NCBI RefSeq assembly: GCF_020149765.1
Contig: NZ_CP083809.1
Location: forward strand, 1,054,001-1,118,000
Direction of reading: 5' to 3'
Length of the DNA: 64,000 bases
DNA from: Pantoea agglomerans
GTDB taxonomy: Bacteria > Pseudomonadota > Gammaproteobacteria > Enterobacterales > Enterobacteriaceae
Shown: one piece after another, positions 6,292 through 14,968 of the stretch
Layout of the letters: each line of letters starts with the position of its first letter
Position numbering within the stretch: position 1 is the first letter of the stretch
The notes under the pieces: generated by a model
The model's database searches: none
Seen by the model: the letters and a program-made list of their open reading frames with translations, nothing else
What the model was told of the DNA's origin: nothing
Translations under genes and position numbers: made by a program

Positions 6292-6897
6292 ATGCGTTCA
6301 GCTGTATCTTACGCGCTCATCGCCATTATTGGCGGTGCTGTTGGCGCGGGCGTTACCCAAAGCGGCGCGCTCTATCAAAAAGTCGTTAACCATTTCGCCG
6401 CCAAACCCAGCGATCCCGACGGCTTCTGGAGCACGCCCGCCGTTGACGGCTACGGCAAGATCCACTACGAGCCGGATGCCGCCTTTAAGCCGGTTGCGGG
6501 CCTGAGTAATAAGATCGTTTTCCAGATCACCCGCAGCGACGGCGCCATGACCGACGTCAACCTTGGCCTGGAGCGCGTGGCGCGCGTGGTCAACCTCTAT
6601 GTCGCCTCCGGCGTGCCGGCGGAAGATCTGAAATTCGTTGTCTCGGTAACGGGCGACGCAACGCCTGCCATGCTGGATAACGCCCACTTCAAACAGTTTT
6701 ACGGCGTAGATAACCCCAACCTCAAGCTGATCAGCCAGCTCGATAAGCTGGGCGTGAAGGTTTCCGTCTGCGATCAGTCGGTGGCTTTCCACCATTACCC
6801 CAACGACTGGATCGATAAATCAGTGGTTCATGCGCTCTCCAGTCCAACGACGGTCTCAACCCTGGAAAATCAGGGTTACGCATGGCTACAGATGTAA
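6292..6897 (+). CDS. DsrE-like protein with N-terminal membrane anchor or signal, copy 1
   Basis: A 201-residue protein with an N-terminal hydrophobic segment (residues 4-22) that looks like an uncleaved anchor or signal, then a DsrE/DsrF-like alpha/beta domain. The only cysteine is C160 in KVSVCDQSVAF, which matches the position of the reactive Cys of DsrE-fold proteins (GV-x-V-C-x-x-S). Other family-like stretches are SNKIVFQI, LGLERVARVVNLY and LKFVVSV. GGAG sits 7 bp before the ATG. It is followed after 34 bp by a paralogue of about 55-60% identity by eye. Function is unknown; sulfur-transfer or thiol chemistry outside the cytoplasm is a guess from the fold and the lone Cys. I do not recognise a named E. 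coli counterpart. Confidence 0.75.
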   Translation: MRSAVSYALIAIIGGAVGAGVTQSGALYQKVVNHFAAKPSDPDGFWSTPAVDGYGKIHYEPDAAFKPVAGLSNKIVFQITRSDGAMTDVNLGLERVARVVNLYVASGVPAEDLKFVVSVTGDATPAMLDNAHFKQFYGVDNPNLKLISQLDKLGVKVSVCDQSVAFHHYPNDWIDKSVVHALSSPTTVSTLENQGYAWLQM

Positions 6898-6931: not shown

Positions 6932-7540
6932 ATGCGTCCAGCGGCCTATATTGTGGTGGCAGCGATAGCCGGTTTTATTGGCGGTAATGTATTACAGCTG
7001 CCGGAATTATATGACAAGGTGAGCGGCAAATTTGCCAGTACCCCGACACAGCCAGCAGATTTCTGGAGTACGCCTGCAATTGAAGGCTTTGGCAAAATTC
7101 ACTACGTCGACACGCCCGCTTTTAAACCCGGTACCGTGCCGGGCCTGAGCAATAAAATTGTTTTCCAGATTAACCGCAATGAGGGCGATATTCGTCAGCC
7201 GAATCTCGGTCTGGAGCGCGTTGCCCGCGTGACCAACCTCTATTACGCCGCAGGCGTGCCGCTGGATCAGCTGAAATTCGTGGTGTCGATCAACAGCGAT
7301 GCGGTGCCGGCGGCGCTGAATAACGATCAGTTCCATAAGGCCTACGGCGTGGATAACCCTAACCTTAAACTGATCGACGAGCTGAAGAAGGCGGGCGTGC
7401 AGGTCTCGATCTGCGACCAGTCGGTGGCCTTTCACAATCTGCAGCGCGACTGGATCGATCAGCGCGTGACCCACACTATCTCCAGCGGCACCACGGTGGC
7501 GACGCTGCAGAACGAAGGCTACGCCTTCCTGATGCTGTAA
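6932..7540 (+). CDS. DsrE-like protein with N-terminal membrane anchor or signal, copy 2
   Basis: A 202-residue paralogue of the preceding gene, with the same plan: N-terminal hydrophobic stretch (about residues 3-22), a shared FWSTPA block near residue 44, conserved GLSNKIVFQI, NLGLERVARV, LKFVVSI, GVDNPNLKLI, and the lone Cys (C161) in VQVSICDQSVAFH. The start at 6932 is preceded by AGGAG (6920-6924); a longer frame opening inside copy 1 has no ribosome site. The pair looks like a tandem duplication kept as a two-gene operon, ending at a hairpin (7549-7571). Function unknown. Confidence 0.75.
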   Translation: MRPAAYIVVAAIAGFIGGNVLQLPELYDKVSGKFASTPTQPADFWSTPAIEGFGKIHYVDTPAFKPGTVPGLSNKIVFQINRNEGDIRQPNLGLERVARVTNLYYAAGVPLDQLKFVVSINSDAVPAALNNDQFHKAYGVDNPNLKLIDELKKAGVQVSICDQSVAFHNLQRDWIDQRVTHTISSGTTVATLQNEGYAFLML

Positions 7541-7548
7541 CCCCCCTC

Positions 7549-7571
7549 GACAGCGGCCCCGTGCCGCTGTC
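7549..7571 (+). terminator. Perfect nine-bp hairpin after the DsrE-like pair
   Basis: GACAGCGGC / GCCGCTGTC with a five-base loop, nine bp after the stop of copy 2. There is no T run, so it may be a Rho-independent terminator of poor quality or a 3' stabilising stem. Confidence 0.5.
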
Positions 7572-7631
7572 ATCTGTTCGTCATTCCGCTGCGATTGTTC
7601 TGTCATACAACCCCTTTAGTTTGAGCGCCAG

Positions 7632-7645
7632 TGAGATCGTTCTCA
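7632..7645 (+). promoter_or_regulatory. Candidate LacI-family operator of the transport operon
   Basis: TGAGATCGTTCTCA is a 14-bp near-palindrome (half-sites TGAGATC and TGAGAAC) with the central CG that is typical of LacI/GalR operators. It lies 21 bp before the start of the LacI-type regulator, the first gene of the operon, which is the expected place for autorepression. Inference from symmetry and position only. Confidence 0.55.
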
Positions 7646-7666
7646 TCAGCGTATCAGGGGAAGAAA

Positions 7667-8704
7667 ATGACCGATTTGATAAGCGTAGCGAAACTGGCGG
7701 GCGTCTCGCGCGCCACGGCGGCGCGCGCCTTCTCCGATCCCCATCTGCTGAAAGAGAGCACGCTGCAGCGGGTGCTGGCGGCGTCGGACCAGCTCGGCTT
7801 CCGCCCTAACCATATCGCGCGACAGCTGCGCACCCAGCACTCCACCACCCTTGGCGTATTGCTGCCTTCGCTGCTCAATCCGGTATTTGCTCATCAGCTG
7901 CAGGCGATGGAGCGTCAGGCGCGGCTGGCCGGCTTCGGGCTGCTGGTCGCCACCAGCGACTATCAGGCCGAGCGCGAGGCGGCAATCGTCGAACATATGC
8001 TGCGTCAGCGCGTCGCCGGGCTGGTGTTAACGGTGGCTGACGCGGACCGCAGCGCGGTGCTGCCGACGCTGGCCGCGGCGCAGATGCCCTTTGTGCTGGC
8101 GCACAACGTGCCGCAGTGCGCCAGCTGGCCGAGCGTCTGCGTCGATAACCGGCGCGCGATGGCCGAAGCGGTCGAACATCTGCTGGGGCTGGGGCACGGC
8201 CATATCGGCATGGTGACCGGCCCTGTCTGGCAGTCCGATCGGGCGCAGCAGCGTTTTCTCGGCTACTGCGACGCCATGCGGCAGGCGGGTCTGAAACCCT
8301 TTCCGCTGATCGAGATGCCGAGCCATACGCGCTCCGACTTTCAACAGCTGCAACCGCGCCTGCAGGGGGCTAATCCGCTGACCGCGGTGATCTGCAGTAA
8401 CGACCTGCTGGCCATCAGCCTGATGGGCGCCGCCGCGCGCGCGGGCGTTCAGGTGCCGACGCAGCTTTCCGTTATGGGCTTCGATGGCATTGAAACCGGC
8501 GAGCATCTGACGCCCTCGCTTGCCTCGGTGGTGCAGCCCAGCGATCTGCTCGGTGCCTGCGCCATCGATATGCTGTTACAACACGCCAGCGGCGGGCTTC
8601 GCATGCTGGCGCACCATCTGCGGCTGGGCGAAAGCATCGCGCCCGCACCGCGCTCTACCTTCGTTAATTCCAGGGAATCCACATGTCAACGCACAAGAGA
8701 ATGA
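7667..8704 (+). CDS. LacI-family transcriptional regulator of the downstream ABC/phosphodiesterase operon
   Basis: A 345-residue LacI/GalR regulator. The N-terminal helix-turn-helix is clear (LISVAKLAGVSRATAARAFSD, hinge-helix region NHIARQLRTQ), followed by a periplasmic-binding-protein-like ligand domain (TLGVLLPSLLNPVF, GLVLTVAD, VCVDNRRAMAEAVEHL, GMVTGP, VICSNDLLAISLM, VMGFDG). The ATG at 7667 follows AGGGG; an earlier in-frame start adds 12 residues without support. Its end overlaps the binding-protein gene by 22 bp, so it is cotranscribed with the transporter and most likely senses the imported ligand or a product of it. A symmetric operator candidate lies just upstream. Confidence 0.9.
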   Translation: MTDLISVAKLAGVSRATAARAFSDPHLLKESTLQRVLAASDQLGFRPNHIARQLRTQHSTTLGVLLPSLLNPVFAHQLQAMERQARLAGFGLLVATSDYQAEREAAIVEHMLRQRVAGLVLTVADADRSAVLPTLAAAQMPFVLAHNVPQCASWPSVCVDNRRAMAEAVEHLLGLGHGHIGMVTGPVWQSDRAQQRFLGYCDAMRQAGLKPFPLIEMPSHTRSDFQQLQPRLQGANPLTAVICSNDLLAISLMGAAARAGVQVPTQLSVMGFDGIETGEHLTPSLASVVQPSDLLGACAIDMLLQHASGGLRMLAHHLRLGESIAPAPRSTFVNSRESTCQRTRE

Positions 8705-9705
8705 AAATGTTAAGCGCTGCGGCGCTGCTGGTTGTATGCGGTATAGCGAGCCAGGCTGCCCACGCGGCGGAAAGCGCCATCTGCTACAACTGTCCGCCGG
8801 AGTGGGCGGACTGGGGAGCGCAGCTGAAAGCTATCGCCCACGACACCGGCGTCCAGGTGCCGCAGGACAATAAAAACTCTGGCCAGGCGCTGGCGCAGCT
8901 GGTCGCCGAGCAGGGCAATCCGGTCGCCGACGTGGTCTATTACGGCGTCAGCTTCGGCATTCAGGCGGCGGGCGCTGGCGTTATCGCCGACTATAAGCCG
9001 GCGCGCTGGGACGAGGTGCCGGCAGGCATGAAAGATCCTGACGGGAAATGGGTGGCGCTGCACTCCGGCACCCTGGGCTTTATGGTCAATGTCGATGCGC
9101 TGGGCGGCGCGCCGCTGCCGACCTCCTGGGATGATCTGCTGAAGCCGGAATATAAGGGCATGGTCGGCTATCTCGATCCCTCCAGCGCCTTTGTTGGCTA
9201 CGTCACCGCCGTGGCGGTGAATCAGGCGAAAGGCGGATCGCTGCAGGACTTCACCCCGGCGCTGAACTGGTTCAAAAAGCTACAGGCCAACCAGCCGATC
9301 GTGCCGAAGCAGACCGCCTACGCGCGCCTGATTTCAGGCGAGATCCCCATTCTGCTCGACTACGACTTCAACGCCTACCGCGCAAAGTATAAAGATCACG
9401 CCAACGTCGCCTTCGTGATCCCGCAGGAGGGGACGGTTACGGTGCCGTACGTTATCAGCCTGGTGAAGAACGCGCCGCACGCTGCCAACGGCAGGAAAGT
9501 GATCGATTATGTGCTCTCGGATAAAGGTCAGGCGATCTGGGCCAACGCCTACCTGCGCCCGGTGCGTCCGTCGGCGATCTCCGCCGAGGCCAAGGCGAAA
9601 TTCCTGCCTGACAGCGACTATGCCCGCGCGACCACGGTGAATTATCAGCAGATGGCCGATGTGCAGAAAGCCTTTTCCGCCCGCTACCTGAGTGAGATCC
9701 GTTAA
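8683..9705 (+). CDS. ABC importer periplasmic substrate-binding protein
   Basis: A 340-residue secreted binding protein with a Sec signal peptide (cleavage near AAHA-AES at about 28). It belongs to the iron/polyamine/2-aminoethylphosphonate cluster of binding proteins: SGQALAQLVAEQ, ADVVYYGVSFGIQAA, TSWDDLLKPEYKGMVGYLDPS, GEIPILLDYDFNAYRAKY, VPYVISLVKNAPH. The mature N-terminus carries a CxxC pair (C34, C37), unusual for the group and perhaps a disulfide. AGGGA lies 6 bp before the ATG, inside the end of the regulator gene. The stop overlaps the first permease start (TAATG). The ligand cannot be read from sequence; the linked phosphodiesterase favours an organophosphorus compound. Confidence 0.88.
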   Translation: MSTHKRMKMLSAAALLVVCGIASQAAHAAESAICYNCPPEWADWGAQLKAIAHDTGVQVPQDNKNSGQALAQLVAEQGNPVADVVYYGVSFGIQAAGAGVIADYKPARWDEVPAGMKDPDGKWVALHSGTLGFMVNVDALGGAPLPTSWDDLLKPEYKGMVGYLDPSSAFVGYVTAVAVNQAKGGSLQDFTPALNWFKKLQANQPIVPKQTAYARLISGEIPILLDYDFNAYRAKYKDHANVAFVIPQEGTVTVPYVISLVKNAPHAANGRKVIDYVLSDKGQAIWANAYLRPVRPSAISAEAKAKFLPDSDYARATTVNYQQMADVQKAFSARYLSEIR

Positions 9706-10577
9706 TGTCGCTGCTGGAAACCCGCAGCGGCGCGCCGACGGCCCTGCGCCGTCGGGCGCATCAGGGCGCGCGCTGGCCCTGGATGCTGCTGCCTGTGCTG
9801 CTCTTTTTCGCCGCCTTCTGGCTGCTGCCTTTCGCGCGCCTGCTGCAGACTGGGCTGACGCCGGATCGCACCACCGGGCAGAGCGGCTACTGGACGGCGA
9901 TCGCCCAGCCGCACTATCTGCAAAGCCTGCTCAACACCCTGCTGCTGTCGCTGGCGGTGACGCTGATAACCCTTCTGATCGCCGCCGTGGTTGGCTGTTT
10001 TCTGGCGCGTCAGCGTTTCGCCGGGCGCGGCACGCTGCTGGCGCTGCTGACCTTTCCGCTCGCCTTTCCCGGCGTGGTCGTGGGGTTTCTGGTGGTAATG
10101 CTGGTGGGGCGGCAGGGGTTGCTGGCGCAGTTGAGCATGAGCCTGTTTCACGAACGCTGGACGCTCGCCTATTCGCTCAGCGGCCTGTTTATCGGCTATC
10201 TCTACTTCTCGCTGCCGCGCGCCATCGTCACGCTGGTGGCTGCCAGCGAAAAGCTGGATCGCTCGCTGGAAGAGGCGGCGCGCTCGCTCGGGGCCAGCCA
10301 GTGGCGCATCACCTGGGACGTTATCGTGCCGGGACTCAGGCCGGCGCTGCTCTCCAGCGGCGCGCTCTGCTTCGCCACCAGCATGGGTGCGTTCGGCACC
10401 GCCTTTACCCTCGGCACCAGCCTTAGCGTGCTGCCGCTGACCATTTACGGCGAGTTCACCAACTACGCCAATTTCGCCACCGCTGCAGCGCTGTCGGTGG
10501 TGATGGGCGCGGTCGCCTGGCTGGGTCTGATAGTGGCGCGCGCCTTAACGCACCATTCGGGAGAGAAATCATCATGA
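9705..10577 (+). CDS. ABC importer permease, first subunit
   Basis: A 290-residue inner-membrane permease of the binding-protein-dependent type (CysTW/PotBC-like), with about six membrane segments. The cytoplasmic EAA loop that docks the ATPase is seen as LEEAARSLGASQWRITWDVI around residues 190-210. The start codon shares its A with the stop of the binding-protein gene, and its own end overlaps the second permease by 4 bp (ATGA), so translation is probably coupled. The substrate is unknown. Confidence 0.9.
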   Translation: MSLLETRSGAPTALRRRAHQGARWPWMLLPVLLFFAAFWLLPFARLLQTGLTPDRTTGQSGYWTAIAQPHYLQSLLNTLLLSLAVTLITLLIAAVVGCFLARQRFAGRGTLLALLTFPLAFPGVVVGFLVVMLVGRQGLLAQLSMSLFHERWTLAYSLSGLFIGYLYFSLPRAIVTLVAASEKLDRSLEEAARSLGASQWRITWDVIVPGLRPALLSSGALCFATSMGAFGTAFTLGTSLSVLPLTIYGEFTNYANFATAAALSVVMGAVAWLGLIVARALTHHSGEKSS

Positions 10578-11385
10578 AGCGTCGCACGCTGTTCTGTTTG
10601 CAGGCCGGGATCACCGCGCTGACGGCGCTGTTTATGATTGTGCCGGTGGTGCTGTCGATGCTGGCGGGCGTGACAGAAAACTACTTCGCTGGCCTGCGCA
10701 GCGGCCTGACGCTGAAGTGGGTCGGGCAGGTGTGGGCGCTCTACGCCGATACCTTCTGGCTGTCGCTGCTGATTGCGCTCTGCTGTCTGGCGATCGTCGT
10801 GGTGACGGGTATTCCTGCCGCCTGGGGGCTGCTCAAGGCGCCGCCGCGCTGGGCCGCCCGCATCGAGGAGTGCCTGATGCTGCCGGTGGCGCTGCCGGGC
10901 CTCGCGACCGCGCTCGGGATTATTCTGCTTTACGGCCGGTTTGACGCGCTGCGTGACAGCTGGCTGTTTATTCTGATCGGCCATGTGCTCTTTACGCTGC
11001 CCTTTATGATCCGGCCGGTGCTGGCGGTGATGCAGGCGATTCAGCTGCCGCGCCTCGAAGAGGCGGCCGCCAGCCTCGGTGCCGGTTTCTGGCGCCGCTT
11101 CTTCACCGTGGTGGTGCCGAACTGCCGCAACGGCATTCTGGCGGGGGCGTTTATGGTAATTACCCTGTCGGTAGGCGAGTTCAATATTACCTGGATGCTG
11201 CACACGCCGCTGACCAAAACCCTGCCGGTCGGGCTGGCGGACAGCTACGCCTCGATGCGGCTGGAAGTGGGATCGGCTTATACGCTGATCTTTATCGTCA
11301 TGATTTTACCGCTGTTGCTGATGCTCAACGCCTGCAATCACTGGCTGGCGCGCCAGACGACGCGAAACGCTGTTAAGGAGCTGGC

Positions 11386-11389
<4 letters not shown>
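10574..11389 (+). CDS. ABC importer permease, second subunit
   Basis: A 271-residue inner-membrane permease pairing with the previous one. Multiple hydrophobic segments from residue 10 on, and an EAA loop LEEAAASLGAGFWRRFFTVV near residues 160-180. It overlaps both neighbours by 4 bp, a sign of translational coupling with the ATPase. It resembles permeases of the polyamine/iron/phosphonate importer group. Confidence 0.9.
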
Positions 11390-12375
<986 letters not shown>

Positions 12376-12385
12376 GGAGAGCGTC

Positions 12386-13216
12386 GTGTCCGACAACCCT
12401 ACGCTGATCGCGCAGATCAGCGACCTGCATATCAAGGCGAACGGTCGCCTGTCCTATAAAAAAGTCGATACCCAGGCGGCGCTGCTGCGCGCCATCGAGA
12501 CCCTTAACGCGCTGCGACCGCAGCCGGATATGGTGGTGATTACGGGCGATCTGGTCGATTTCGGCGCGGTGGAGGAGTATCAGACGCTGCGGCAGCTGCT
12601 GCGCCGCCTGCAGCTGCCGTTCCGCCTGATGCCGGGCAATCATGACGATCGCCAGGCGCTGCGCGAGGTGTTTGCCGATCACCTCTATCTTCAGCACGGC
12701 GTCACCCTGAACTGGCAGCTAAAGGTCGGGCCGCTACAGCTGCTTGCGCTCGACTCCAGCGTGCCGGGGCAGCCCTGGGGCGAGGTCGATGCGCATCAGC
12801 TGAGGTGGCTGGAGCAACATCTGGCGCGCGAACCCGCCGCGCCGACGCTGGTGATGCTGCATCATCCGCCTTTTATCTGCGGCATCGACCATATGGATCG
12901 CCAGCGGCTGCGCGACCCCGGCGCGCTGGCGGCGGTGATCGCCCGCTATCCGCAGGTAGAGCGGGTGCTGTGCGGCCATCTGCATCGCAGCCTGCAGACG
13001 CGCTTTGCCGGTACCCTGGCGGTGTGCGCGCCGGGCCTCTCCCATCAGGTGGCCTTTGACCTGCAGCCCGACGGCCCGGCCCATTTCGTGCTGGAGCCGC
13101 CTGGTTTTCTGCTGCACCGCTGGCAGCCGGGGCAGGGCATGGTGACGCATCAGTGCGCCATTGGTGATTATTCTGGCCCCTGGCCCTTCTACGATGAGCA
13201 GGGGCTGATCGATTAG
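12386..13216 (+). CDS. GpdQ/CpdA-like class III metallophosphodiesterase
   Basis: A 276-residue calcineurin-like phosphoesterase with the full metal-site set: ISDLH (D-x-H), TGDLVD, PGNHDD, MLHHPP and CGHLH. It resembles the glycerophosphodiesterase GpdQ of Klebsiella/Enterobacter aerogenes more than E. coli CpdA, including the C-terminal GPWPFYDE segment that GpdQ also carries (GPW-YDE). The start is GTG at 12386, with AAGGAGA at 12374-12380; an ATG frame opening 297 bp earlier lies inside the ATPase gene. No signal peptide, so it acts in the cytoplasm. Being last in the importer operon, it probably hydrolyses the imported phosphodiester; cAMP hydrolysis is an alternative. Confidence 0.85.
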   Translation: MSDNPTLIAQISDLHIKANGRLSYKKVDTQAALLRAIETLNALRPQPDMVVITGDLVDFGAVEEYQTLRQLLRRLQLPFRLMPGNHDDRQALREVFADHLYLQHGVTLNWQLKVGPLQLLALDSSVPGQPWGEVDAHQLRWLEQHLAREPAAPTLVMLHHPPFICGIDHMDRQRLRDPGALAAVIARYPQVERVLCGHLHRSLQTRFAGTLAVCAPGLSHQVAFDLQPDGPAHFVLEPPGFLLHRWQPGQGMVTHQCAIGDYSGPWPFYDEQGLID

Positions 13217-13381: not shown

Positions 13382-14968
13382 ATGTTAATGCGCCTGCGTC
13401 CCCGAACCGATCTACGCACGCTTATCGCGTTGCTCGCCATCGTCAGCATTGTGGTTACGCTCACCAACGCGCTCTATGCTACCTGGCGCGTGCAGCGTAT
13501 GGCGCTGATCGACAGCACGCTGGAGGCGAACCGCGCTTACGCCACCAAGCTCGCCTCCACCACCGAAATCTTTTTCCAGCTGGCGCAGTCGCAGCTGCAC
13601 TACAGCGCCAGGCTGCTCGGCGAAAACTTTGAGGATCCCGCGCTGCTGCGTCAGGAGGTCGATCGCCTGCGCGAGCAGACCAGCAGCTTTAACTCGGTAG
13701 CGGTGGTCGACGCTAACGGCGTGGTCAAGGCTATCTCACCGGAATCCCTGATGCTGCAGGGCATGCACCTGACCAGCGATGCGTCGCGTGAGGCGCTCAG
13801 CTCGCGCCAGCCCGCCATCAGCAAGCCGACCATCTCAGCGGCCAATAACCTGATTATTTTTGTCTCCTGGCCCATCTGGAGCCGCGACGGCCGCTATCTC
13901 GGCTACGTGGGCGGCACCATCTACCTGAAAAAGAAAAGCATCTTAAATACGCTGCTCGGCGAGCAGTACTATCGCGACGGCACCAGCGTCTACGTGCTCG
14001 ACAGCACCAGCCAGGTGCTCTATCACCAGAACGGGCAGCTGGTTGGCAAAACCCTGCCCGCGCTGCTGAGCGGGCGCGGTGAAACCACCAACGGCTCGCT
14101 GCAGCTGCGGACGGCGGGCGAGCCGCCGCGCCTTGTCGGATACGCCGTGGTGCCGACCACCGGCTGGACGGTGGTGGCGCTGAAGCCGACCGCCGTTACG
14201 CTGGAGCCGCTCTCTGGTCTGCTGATGCAGGTGCTGAAGCACTCGGTGCCTTTCGCGCTGCTGACGCTGCTGGTGGCGGTGGTGCTGGCGCGGCTGATCG
14301 CGCTGCCGCTCTGGCAGCTGGCGCGTAAGGCGCGTCAGATGGATGCGCCGGGCGTCTCAATGGAGCTGGACACGATTCATGCCTGGTATTTTGAGGCGGC
14401 GCAGGTAAAACGCGCGCTGCTGACCGGCATCGGGCTGGTGCAGGACAAAATCGGCCGCCTGAAGTCAGAGGTGCAGACCGATCCGCTCACCCAGCTGCTT
14501 AACCGGCGCGGCCTGAGCGCGGTGCTCGACTTCTATCATACGCTGCGTCAGCCGTTCGCCGTGCTGGCGCTTGATATCGACCACTTCAAGCGGGTCAACG
14601 ATAGCTGGGGACATGACGTTGGCGATCGCGTAATTAAGCAGGTCGCGAAGACGCTGAGCGCCAGCGCGCGTCAGAGCGACGTGGTGTGTCGCAACGGCGG
14701 AGAGGAGTTCCTGATGCTGCTGCCGATGACCGAGATTGATGAGGCGAGCCGCATTGCCGAACGTATACGCGCCAGCATCGCCGAGGCGTCGATAGCTGAT
14801 GTCGGTGCCATTACCCTTTCCGTCGGAGTAGCCGCCTGGCAGGATGAGGCGCAGCCGCTGGAGCAAAGCCTGAAGCAGGCTGACGCCGCGCTCTATCAGG
14901 CGAAACATGACGGGCGCAACTGCGTGCGGGTCGCGGAGGGGCGGCGGTCAGAGAGCCTGACGCCGTAA
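13382..14968 (+). CDS. Membrane-bound diguanylate cyclase with extracytoplasmic sensor domain
   Basis: A 528-residue inner-membrane protein. Membrane segment 1 lies near residues 13-35, then an extracytoplasmic Cache-like sensor region of about 240 residues (VAVVDANGVVKAIS, WPIWSRDGRYLGYVGGTIY), a second membrane segment near 285-305, and a GGDEF domain with DPLTQLLNRRGL, LDIDHFKRVNDSWGH and an active GGEEF site. RxxD (RQSD) five residues before GGEEF is the product-inhibition I-site, so it should make c-di-GMP and be feedback regulated. The start at 13382 places the first helix normally; upstream in-frame residues have no support. The input signal is unknown. Confidence 0.9.
   Translation: MLMRLRPRTDLRTLIALLAIVSIVVTLTNALYATWRVQRMALIDSTLEANRAYATKLASTTEIFFQLAQSQLHYSARLLGENFEDPALLRQEVDRLREQTSSFNSVAVVDANGVVKAISPESLMLQGMHLTSDASREALSSRQPAISKPTISAANNLIIFVSWPIWSRDGRYLGYVGGTIYLKKKSILNTLLGEQYYRDGTSVYVLDSTSQVLYHQNGQLVGKTLPALLSGRGETTNGSLQLRTAGEPPRLVGYAVVPTTGWTVVALKPTAVTLEPLSGLLMQVLKHSVPFALLTLLVAVVLARLIALPLWQLARKARQMDAPGVSMELDTIHAWYFEAAQVKRALLTGIGLVQDKIGRLKSEVQTDPLTQLLNRRGLSAVLDFYHTLRQPFAVLALDIDHFKRVNDSWGHDVGDRVIKQVAKTLSASARQSDVVCRNGGEEFLMLLPMTEIDEASRIAERIRASIAEASIADVGAITLSVGVAAWQDEAQPLEQSLKQADAALYQAKHDGRNCVRVAEGRRSESLTP

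Follow-up and report, generated by a model that had tools for sequence, protein, structure and literature searches.

Introduction

In Escherichia coli the ATP-binding cassette (ABC) importer UgpBAEC works together with the cytoplasmic UgpQ, and to our knowledge transporters for intact diesters are poorly known outside Ugp. This report concerns a six-gene operon at positions 7667-13216 of a 64,000-nucleotide stretch of Pantoea agglomerans DNA (contig NZ_CP083809.1, positions 1,054,001 to 1,118,000, hereafter the window), which encodes a LacI-family regulator, an ABC importer and a GpdQ-like phosphodiesterase. As judged from its sequence, the operon is probably a PhoB-activated, substrate-derepressed importer which, with its predicted cytoplasmic enzyme, would scavenge an organic phosphodiester as phosphorus source. 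With Ugp and with Ugp-like operons that carry GpdQ it would share ABC import of glycerol-phosphate compounds and a phosphodiesterase in the operon. The Ugp-like GpdQ operons differ in using another ABC family for the binding protein and permeases and in their gene order, permease-permease-enzyme-ATPase-binding protein. GpdQ of Enterobacter aerogenes (2dxl, 2zo9 and 3d03) is nearest to the enzyme by sequence and fold, with the metal positions kept, whereas the importer family differs. The aminoethylphosphonate importers including PhnSTUV, together with AfuABC, are the closest named families of the binding protein and the ATPase, but their NCBIfam cut-offs are missed and the sugar determinants of AfuA are not kept; we know of no phosphodiesterase in PhnSTUV or AfuABC operons. 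Since the system would work like Ugp with a cytoplasmic phosphodiesterase but from another importer family, it is not filed under Ugp, PhnSTUV or AfuABC.

Two systems of Phaeobacter are also comparable, both by description. The glycerol-1/3-phosphate importer GpxB is likewise an organophosphate importer first taken for a phosphonate transporter, and the part of that account at hand mentions neither a phosphodiesterase nor a LacI regulator (PMC12718374). GpxB was considered as a sister family of the binding protein and dropped, as it is there placed in the PhnT family 3.A.1.9 and grouped with PhnD, PtxB and HtxB (PMC12718374). The locus MED193_11288-11308 holds a predicted phosphodiesterase and a 'sugar' ABC importer, and its numbering places the enzyme beside the binding protein, unlike the order found here; phosphodiesterase, binding protein and ATPase are raised by phosphate starvation, and in a phoB mutant the enzyme and ATPase are undetected while the binding protein, of low abundance, is still raised (PMC10132767). 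A literature search, with most subscription journals outside its coverage, recognised no paper describing this gene set. The statement in a preliminary description of the window that no characterised system has exactly these genes thus held up, with functional parallels in the Ugp-like GpdQ operon and in Phaeobacter.

Gene order and conservation

All six genes are on the + strand, and the open reading frames confirm the overlaps of 22, 1, 4 and 4 bp and the final 10-bp gap reported in the preliminary description. The operon begins with the gene of the LacI-family transcriptional regulator (7667..8704, 345 amino acids (aa)), a predicted local repressor with PF00356 and PF00532 over cut-off, that is the domains LacI and Peripla_BP_1, which reaches no NCBIfam cut-off in the profile scan. 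It is overlapped by 22 bp by the gene of a periplasmic substrate-binding protein (8683..9705, 340 aa, PF13343, SBP_bac_6), followed with overlaps of 1 and 4 bp by permease 1 (9705..10577, 290 aa) and permease 2 (10574..11389, 271 aa), both PF00528 (BPD_transp_1), and with a further 4-bp overlap by an ATPase with a TOBE_2 domain (11386..12375, 329 aa, PF00005, ABC_tran, and PF08402). The GpdQ-like metallophosphodiesterase (12386..13216, 276 aa, PF00149, Metallophos) starts with GTG after the 10-bp gap. Mechanical calls of the reading frames are longer for the regulator (from GTG 7631) and the enzyme (from TTG 12089), and the starts chosen earlier match the conserved N-termini better. The Pfam scans agree with the family names first given to all six products, and translation and alignment likewise bear out the intact ATPase and metallophosphoesterase motifs; in the ATPase, Walker A GPSGCGKTT, signature LSGGQKQR, Walker B LLFDEP and H-loop THDQQEA were read by eye. 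Periplasmic binding protein, two permease domains and an ATPase with intact motifs make up a binding-protein-dependent ABC importer.

To assess conservation, named genomes were scanned with an alignment of 15 phosphodiesterases, by which at least 560 candidate stretches were confirmed and the best 80 kept. All six genes were recognisable, in the same order and on one strand, in 76 of these 80 best loci, which come from Pantoea, Erwinia, Halomonas, Marinobacterium, Pseudomonas and Cupriavidus. The four exceptions are L051 with an apparent internal deletion, L053, where lacI was the gene not found, and two loci, L078 and L097, whose matches are close to a contig end. Inversely, in a sample of 149 Pseudomonas genomes the binding protein was found in 35 at E 1e-90, and in 35/35 the enzyme lay no more than 4 kb away, on that contig and strand; one more genome had only a 46% enzyme relative, and 4 of the 35 had a second copy at 42-46%. 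The conserved co-occurrence of the six genes, which the preliminary description had proposed as a check, is seen when starting from the enzyme, and the linkage of enzyme and binding protein is seen from either side. The operon is a conserved cassette, and its arrangement is more than chance. The same gene order is also present on replicons of Ruegeria, Agrobacterium and Roseovarius, and sequence comparison shows it in Azospirillum as well. The cassette is conserved across alpha-, beta- and gammaproteobacteria. In Roseovarius Pro17 it comes right after pstCAB-phoU-phoB. The genes conserved beside it are not the same in Pantoea/Erwinia, Halomonas and Pseudomonas loci, which argues that the cassette is self-contained.

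The spread is patchy. The binding protein was present at 60% identity or more in 3/148 order-wide genomes and at E 1e-60 in one of 274 class-wide genomes, namely the host itself; the closest enzyme outside the host, at 91% identity, is that of Pantoea septica. Decay of the cassette was observed in Pantoea sp. BAV 3049 (L051), where what remains is the enzyme gene with the beginning of lacI and the final part of the ATPase gene, and in Candidatus Pantoea persica (L033), where the genes are in pieces and which is still counted among the 76. Directly upstream of the operon in the window, 6292-6897 and 6932-7540 encode tandem similar DsrE/DsrF-like proteins (PF02635) with hydrophobic N-termini, and relatives of these lie upstream of the cassette in 17/80 loci. 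Downstream of the operon, on its strand, 13382-14968 encodes a dCache-GGDEF protein, as is the case in 21/80 loci, all of them with a Pantoea-type neighbourhood and a few in records titled Enterobacter or Enterobacteriaceae.

Candidate regulatory sites

A Pho box consists of two 11-bp repeats with CTGTCAT cores, and such boxes are found at E. coli ugp (PMC4415409). Upstream of the operon, on the + strand at 7567..7584, lies a Pho-box-like pair of 11-bp direct repeats, CTGTCATCTGTTCGTCAT, about 64 bp before the candidate operator described below. It matches CTGTCAT-N4-CTGTCAT in 12/14 positions and scores 12.9 with a weight matrix. That matrix was built on seven E. coli Pho sites. A further half-site, CTGTCAT at 7600-7606, stands three repeat lengths on from the start of the pair. 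The simple rule, counting matches out of 14, was applied to 77 operon upstream regions and to 683 control regions upstream of neighbouring, mechanically called open frames in the same loci. At least 12/14 was reached by 36/77 operon regions versus 0/683 controls, at least 11 by 52/77 versus 5/683 and at least 10 by 64/77 versus 47/683, the 77 regions being related and the counts therefore not independent; 10 was reached in 22/26 hand-picked representatives. With the weight matrix a score of at least 12 was found for 46/77 operon regions, compared with 4/683 neighbour-frame regions and 3/2222 random windows. Among other cassettes the matrix gave 17.5 for G114 and 12.2 for Agrobacterium, and upstream of three GpdQ-carrying operons it gave 16.1, 14.5 and 11.1. 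In a pattern scan of the window, neither a sigma-70-type promoter pattern nor a terminator was found for the operon, and the lack of a recognisable sigma-70 pattern fits an activator-dependent promoter. By the criterion of two 11-bp CTGTCAT repeats upstream the operon would be a member of the Pho regulon, with predicted dependence on PhoB.

The predicted LacI operator, GTGAGATCGTTCTCAT at 7631..7646 (no strand assigned), matches the family consensus ATGAGATCGATCTCAT in 14/16 positions. At least 14/16 was found in 71/77 regions, and a 72nd (L104) has the palindrome further upstream. The 14-bp core occurs exactly once per genome in 31/32 whole cassette genomes searched, the 32nd having a one-base variant, and the exact core adjoins the lacI gene at 30/30 fetched sites. 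In the host the exact core is absent; there are three one-mismatch sites, one of which is the operon copy, and 29 two-mismatch sites. A wider LacI regulon was considered and rejected, the exact core being found once per genome in 31/32 relatives. The palindrome varies with the recognition helix. Helix VSRATAAR goes with TGAGATCGATCTCA in gammaproteobacteria (a one-base variant in L050 and L052), VSRTTAAR (L076) with TGGGATCGATCCCA, VSLATASR (four Cupriavidus loci) with TGAAAACGTTTTCA and CG[VI]ATASR (three alphaproteobacteria) with TGGAAACGTTTCCA. The fit is poorer for Azospirillum, which has the alphaproteobacterial palindrome with another helix, VSIATVSR. Because the sequence usually changes where the recognition helix changes, and because the core is exact once per genome beside lacI, there is on balance good evidence that the palindrome is the target of this LacI regulator. 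With its LacI helix-turn-helix, its Peripla_BP ligand domain and, next to its gene, a predicted palindromic site centred on CG, the regulator fits a LacI local repressor. The Pho-box-like repeat and the palindrome on the LacI side are additions to the preliminary description and are the strongest new clue.

The phosphodiesterase

GpdQ is the best solved match of the enzyme, with a sequence E value of 2e-46 and a template-modelling (TM) score of 0.86 over 271 columns (3d03) at about 35% identity. The seven metal-ligand positions of GpdQ are kept in the alignment (here D13, H15, D55, N85, H159, H198 and H200). This set is not specific to GpdQ, since CpdA keeps it too. H217 of GpdQ was tried as a marker against CpdA and dropped, as the full CpdA frame has H there too. 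The enzyme is accordingly named GpdQ-like, not GpdQ, and hydrolysis of glycerophosphodiesters is predicted from its family. No signal peptide was visible by eye, and the enzyme is therefore predicted to be cytoplasmic.

An enzyme of this superfamily might instead act during starvation on an internal signal, such as cyclic AMP (cAMP) or 2',3'-cyclic nucleotides, or in the manner of PlcP on membrane lipids, and not on an imported ligand. It shares its superfamily with CpdA and SpdA, and the metallophosphoesterase PlcP, likened here by description, is raised by phosphate depletion in Pseudomonas (PMC5082522). However, the enzyme scores 129.6 bits with CpdA (NF008359) against a cut-off of 225, and 120.1 bits with the 2',3'-cyclic nucleotide phosphodiesterase SpdA (NF050112) against a cut-off of 400. 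The host genome also encodes a separate CpdA with 474.5 bits, where the operon enzyme gets 130.1, and a house-keeping enzyme of signalling would be oddly placed in an importer operon under LacI control. Such an internal role is considered improbable. A cAMP-specific enzyme that is not conserved with the transporter was the finding which the preliminary description had named as speaking against its proposal; what was found is strict linkage to the transporter and a separate CpdA in the genome.

The binding protein and the importer

The N-terminus of the binding protein reads by eye as a signal peptide, and its family PF13343 presumably differs from the Pfam family of GpxB. Its model has a predicted local distance difference test (pLDDT) score of 84.6, with 5t1p, VcA0625, STM0429, AfuA and P5PA as best solved matches. 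Going by entry titles and molecule names, the nearest named structures bind glucose-6-phosphate, aminoethylphosphonate and pyridoxal-phosphate. Against the aminoethylphosphonate importer families NF011620, TIGR03227, TIGR03261 and TIGR03265 the binding protein reached 125.5/105.3/78.5 bits and missed the cut-offs of 310/395.3/392.75. For the ATPase the nearest NCBIfam is PhnT2, with 350 bits against a cut-off of 457.7, and the UgpC subfamily NF008653 was also missed (305.2 bits, cut-off 432).

The fold matches could also point to an importer of sugar-phosphate or glycerol-phosphate monoesters in which the enzyme has a side role. The glucose-6-phosphate binders AfuA and VcA0625 are among the nearest solved structures, and the AfuA phosphate ligand Ser37 aligns with an invariant residue, S66, the AfuA ligand residues being those given in PMC4546632. 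A related importer on pTM4 of Tistrella mobilis (L147, 3198-14423) is near two GlpR-like regulators and a glycerol-3-phosphate-oxidase-like enzyme, all below NCBIfam cut-offs; a TRAP importer is present there too. Yet the sugar-fixing residues of AfuA, H205, D206 and E229, are not kept and align with N230, A231 and V254, and a monoester importer leaves the strict linkage of the phosphodiesterase unexplained. This is rather unlikely. An importer of polyamines or ferric iron with the enzyme as a passenger, as some annotations have it, is very improbable in view of the scores with PotD and PotF (some 22 bits, where the cut-offs are 582 and 636), the Pho-box repeats and, again, the strict phosphodiesterase linkage.

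Relatives and phosphorus genes elsewhere

Both the enzyme and the binding protein have relatives in other operons. A near-identical GpdQ, as judged by eye, was found by the family scan in a Ugp-like operon of another Erwiniaceae genome, G080, and the same frame layout is present in G126. Also E. coli plasmid p2D-3 has the annotated gene order of the G080 operon; its GpdQ relative (L148, 5232-10204) belongs to an operon annotated as a sugar ABC importer; the plasmid is of IncF type, and transposase genes lie close by. Among the plasmid records that match this enzyme at 1e-30, 192/232 are Escherichia, and one was examined. In the stretches examined, no LacI gene was found beside the Ugp-like GpdQ operons, the one exception being a 26% match in L026, at a distance of about 5 kb.

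Phosphonate genes are met in some of these places, and it is conceivable that the imported compound is a phosphonate ester, such as one of glycerol or a sugar, that the enzyme strips the alcohol and that an enzyme for the carbon-phosphorus (C-P) bond encoded elsewhere finishes. The best NCBIfam matches of the binding protein are indeed aminoethylphosphonate binders. On a plasmid of Mesorhizobium sp. AR02 (L149, 490-13090) a GpdQ relative with an Opp-type importer is inside the C-P lyase phn operon, between phnL and phnN, an arrangement that points to phosphonate esters as the nutrient. On plasmids of Pseudosulfitobacter and Roseovarius indicus (L171 and L172, 25-10717) the C-P lyase operon ends with a 34.6% relative of the binding protein and its ABC genes; the two plasmids count as one instance because they share protein accessions. 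PhnJ is present in 20/35 cassette genomes, host included. Against this, 15/35 had no match to PhnJ, the only C-P enzyme searched, no recognised phosphonate gene is among the conserved neighbours, which were listed by sequence and not all annotated, and the scores with phosphonate binders are far below cut-offs. The phosphonate-ester route is thus regarded as unlikely for the cassette. C-P lyase as an obligatory partner was rejected, given the 15/35 cassette genomes with no PhnJ match.

UgpB was over cut-off in 18/35 cassette genomes, host included, from which it follows that the substrate may differ from that of Ugp. With presence in only 20/35 and 18/35, neither PhnJ nor UgpB is required. Among the cassette genomes titled Pseudomonas UgpB was over cut-off in only 1/15, and as 14/15 were without it the cassette could fill the Ugp role in this genus.

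Two more distant cases were noted. A plasmid of the archaeon Halopenitus persicus (L145, 6013-11683) encodes a binding protein (36%), two permeases, an ATPase and a metallophosphoesterase, with a divergent HAD phosphatase; there was no LacI in the examined stretch, and the metallophosphoesterase gave no blastp match to the operon enzyme at 1e-6 and weak family scores only. This operon is at best an analogue. Around binding-protein relatives in Mycetohabitans and Paraburkholderia no recognised phosphorus gene was found in the stretches examined.

Discussion

That the operon provides a dedicated, conserved route to import and cleave a phosphorus compound is a well-supported prediction, because of the gene linkage, the Pho-box-like repeats, the self-contained cassette and the organophosphate binders nearest in fold. 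The preliminary description had proposed a route importing a phosphodiester and cleaving it in the cytoplasm. The part that gains support, from the linkage, the repeats, the changing neighbourhoods and the folds, is a dedicated route for a phosphorus compound; that its ligand is a phosphodiester, and that this is cleaved, is a prediction from the family of the enzyme. Glycerophosphodiesters, for example glycerophosphocholine or glycerophosphoethanolamine, are the leading candidates for the substrate, with a chance slightly short of even.

Under phosphate starvation, PhoB would bind the repeats at 7567-7584 and activate the promoter, and LacI on the palindrome at 7631-7646 would keep the operon off as long as its inducer, presumably the substrate taken up or the product made from it, is missing. 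Expression would then need both low phosphate and the right food, as activation by PhoB is combined with release of LacI. The binding protein would capture a small organophosphate in the periplasm for import by the two permeases and the ATPase, and the cytoplasmic enzyme may then hydrolyse the phosphodiester bond. The products, glycerol phosphate and an alcohol, would need no further dedicated enzyme.

Several observations weigh against such a PhoB-activated phosphodiester route. The identity to GpdQ is about 35%, and in a tree the grouping of the enzyme with GpdQ, separate from CpdA, was not resolved, the deep forks being unsupported (10/73) and the branches long. Of the two phosphate ligands of AfuA the binding protein keeps just one, T150 aligning with V171, and in the fold list iron binders come closely after the organophosphate binders. 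Relatives of both enzyme and binding protein in C-P lyase operons also fit a phosphonate, and 18/35 cassette genomes, the host among them, have UgpB. LacI regulators mostly sense sugars, as stated in PMC4052901, and no convincing palindrome was found for G114 (helix VSPATVSR). The Pho-box counts come from related regions, and scores are low in all four Cupriavidus loci. By matrix 9/16 loci of the Halomonas group reach 10 and 7/16 are below 10, while Ruegeria has 6.4 and Roseovarius 4.5, the latter although the Pro17 cassette follows pstCAB-phoU-phoB. Nine pstS regions served as positive control, and 12/14 was reached in only 3 of them, each Pantoea-type (host 13; other Pantoea 14, 13 and 10; five Pseudomonas 8 to 11), and the simple rule is an imperfect detector that misses real cases.

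More tentatively, the cassette may belong to a widespread, uncharacterised class of importers, switched on by PhoB and kept off by LacI until substrate appears, for phosphodiesters or phosphonate monoesters not taken by Ugp, in which GpdQ-like enzymes are paired with several unrelated ABC families (PhnS-like here, Ugp-like, and Opp-like in C-P lyase operons). Soil, plant surfaces and the sea plausibly hold large pools of organic phosphorus in the form of phospholipid-derived diesters, and many plant, soil and sea bacteria carry the cassette. If the import-and-cleave reading is right, proteins now called spermidine/putrescine or aminoethylphosphonate binders would be reassigned, and the cassette would serve as a further set of marker genes for the use of diesters under phosphate stress. 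Its Pho-box and operator signals give clear predictions, and with the two-signal promoter a case of joint global and local control could be tested.

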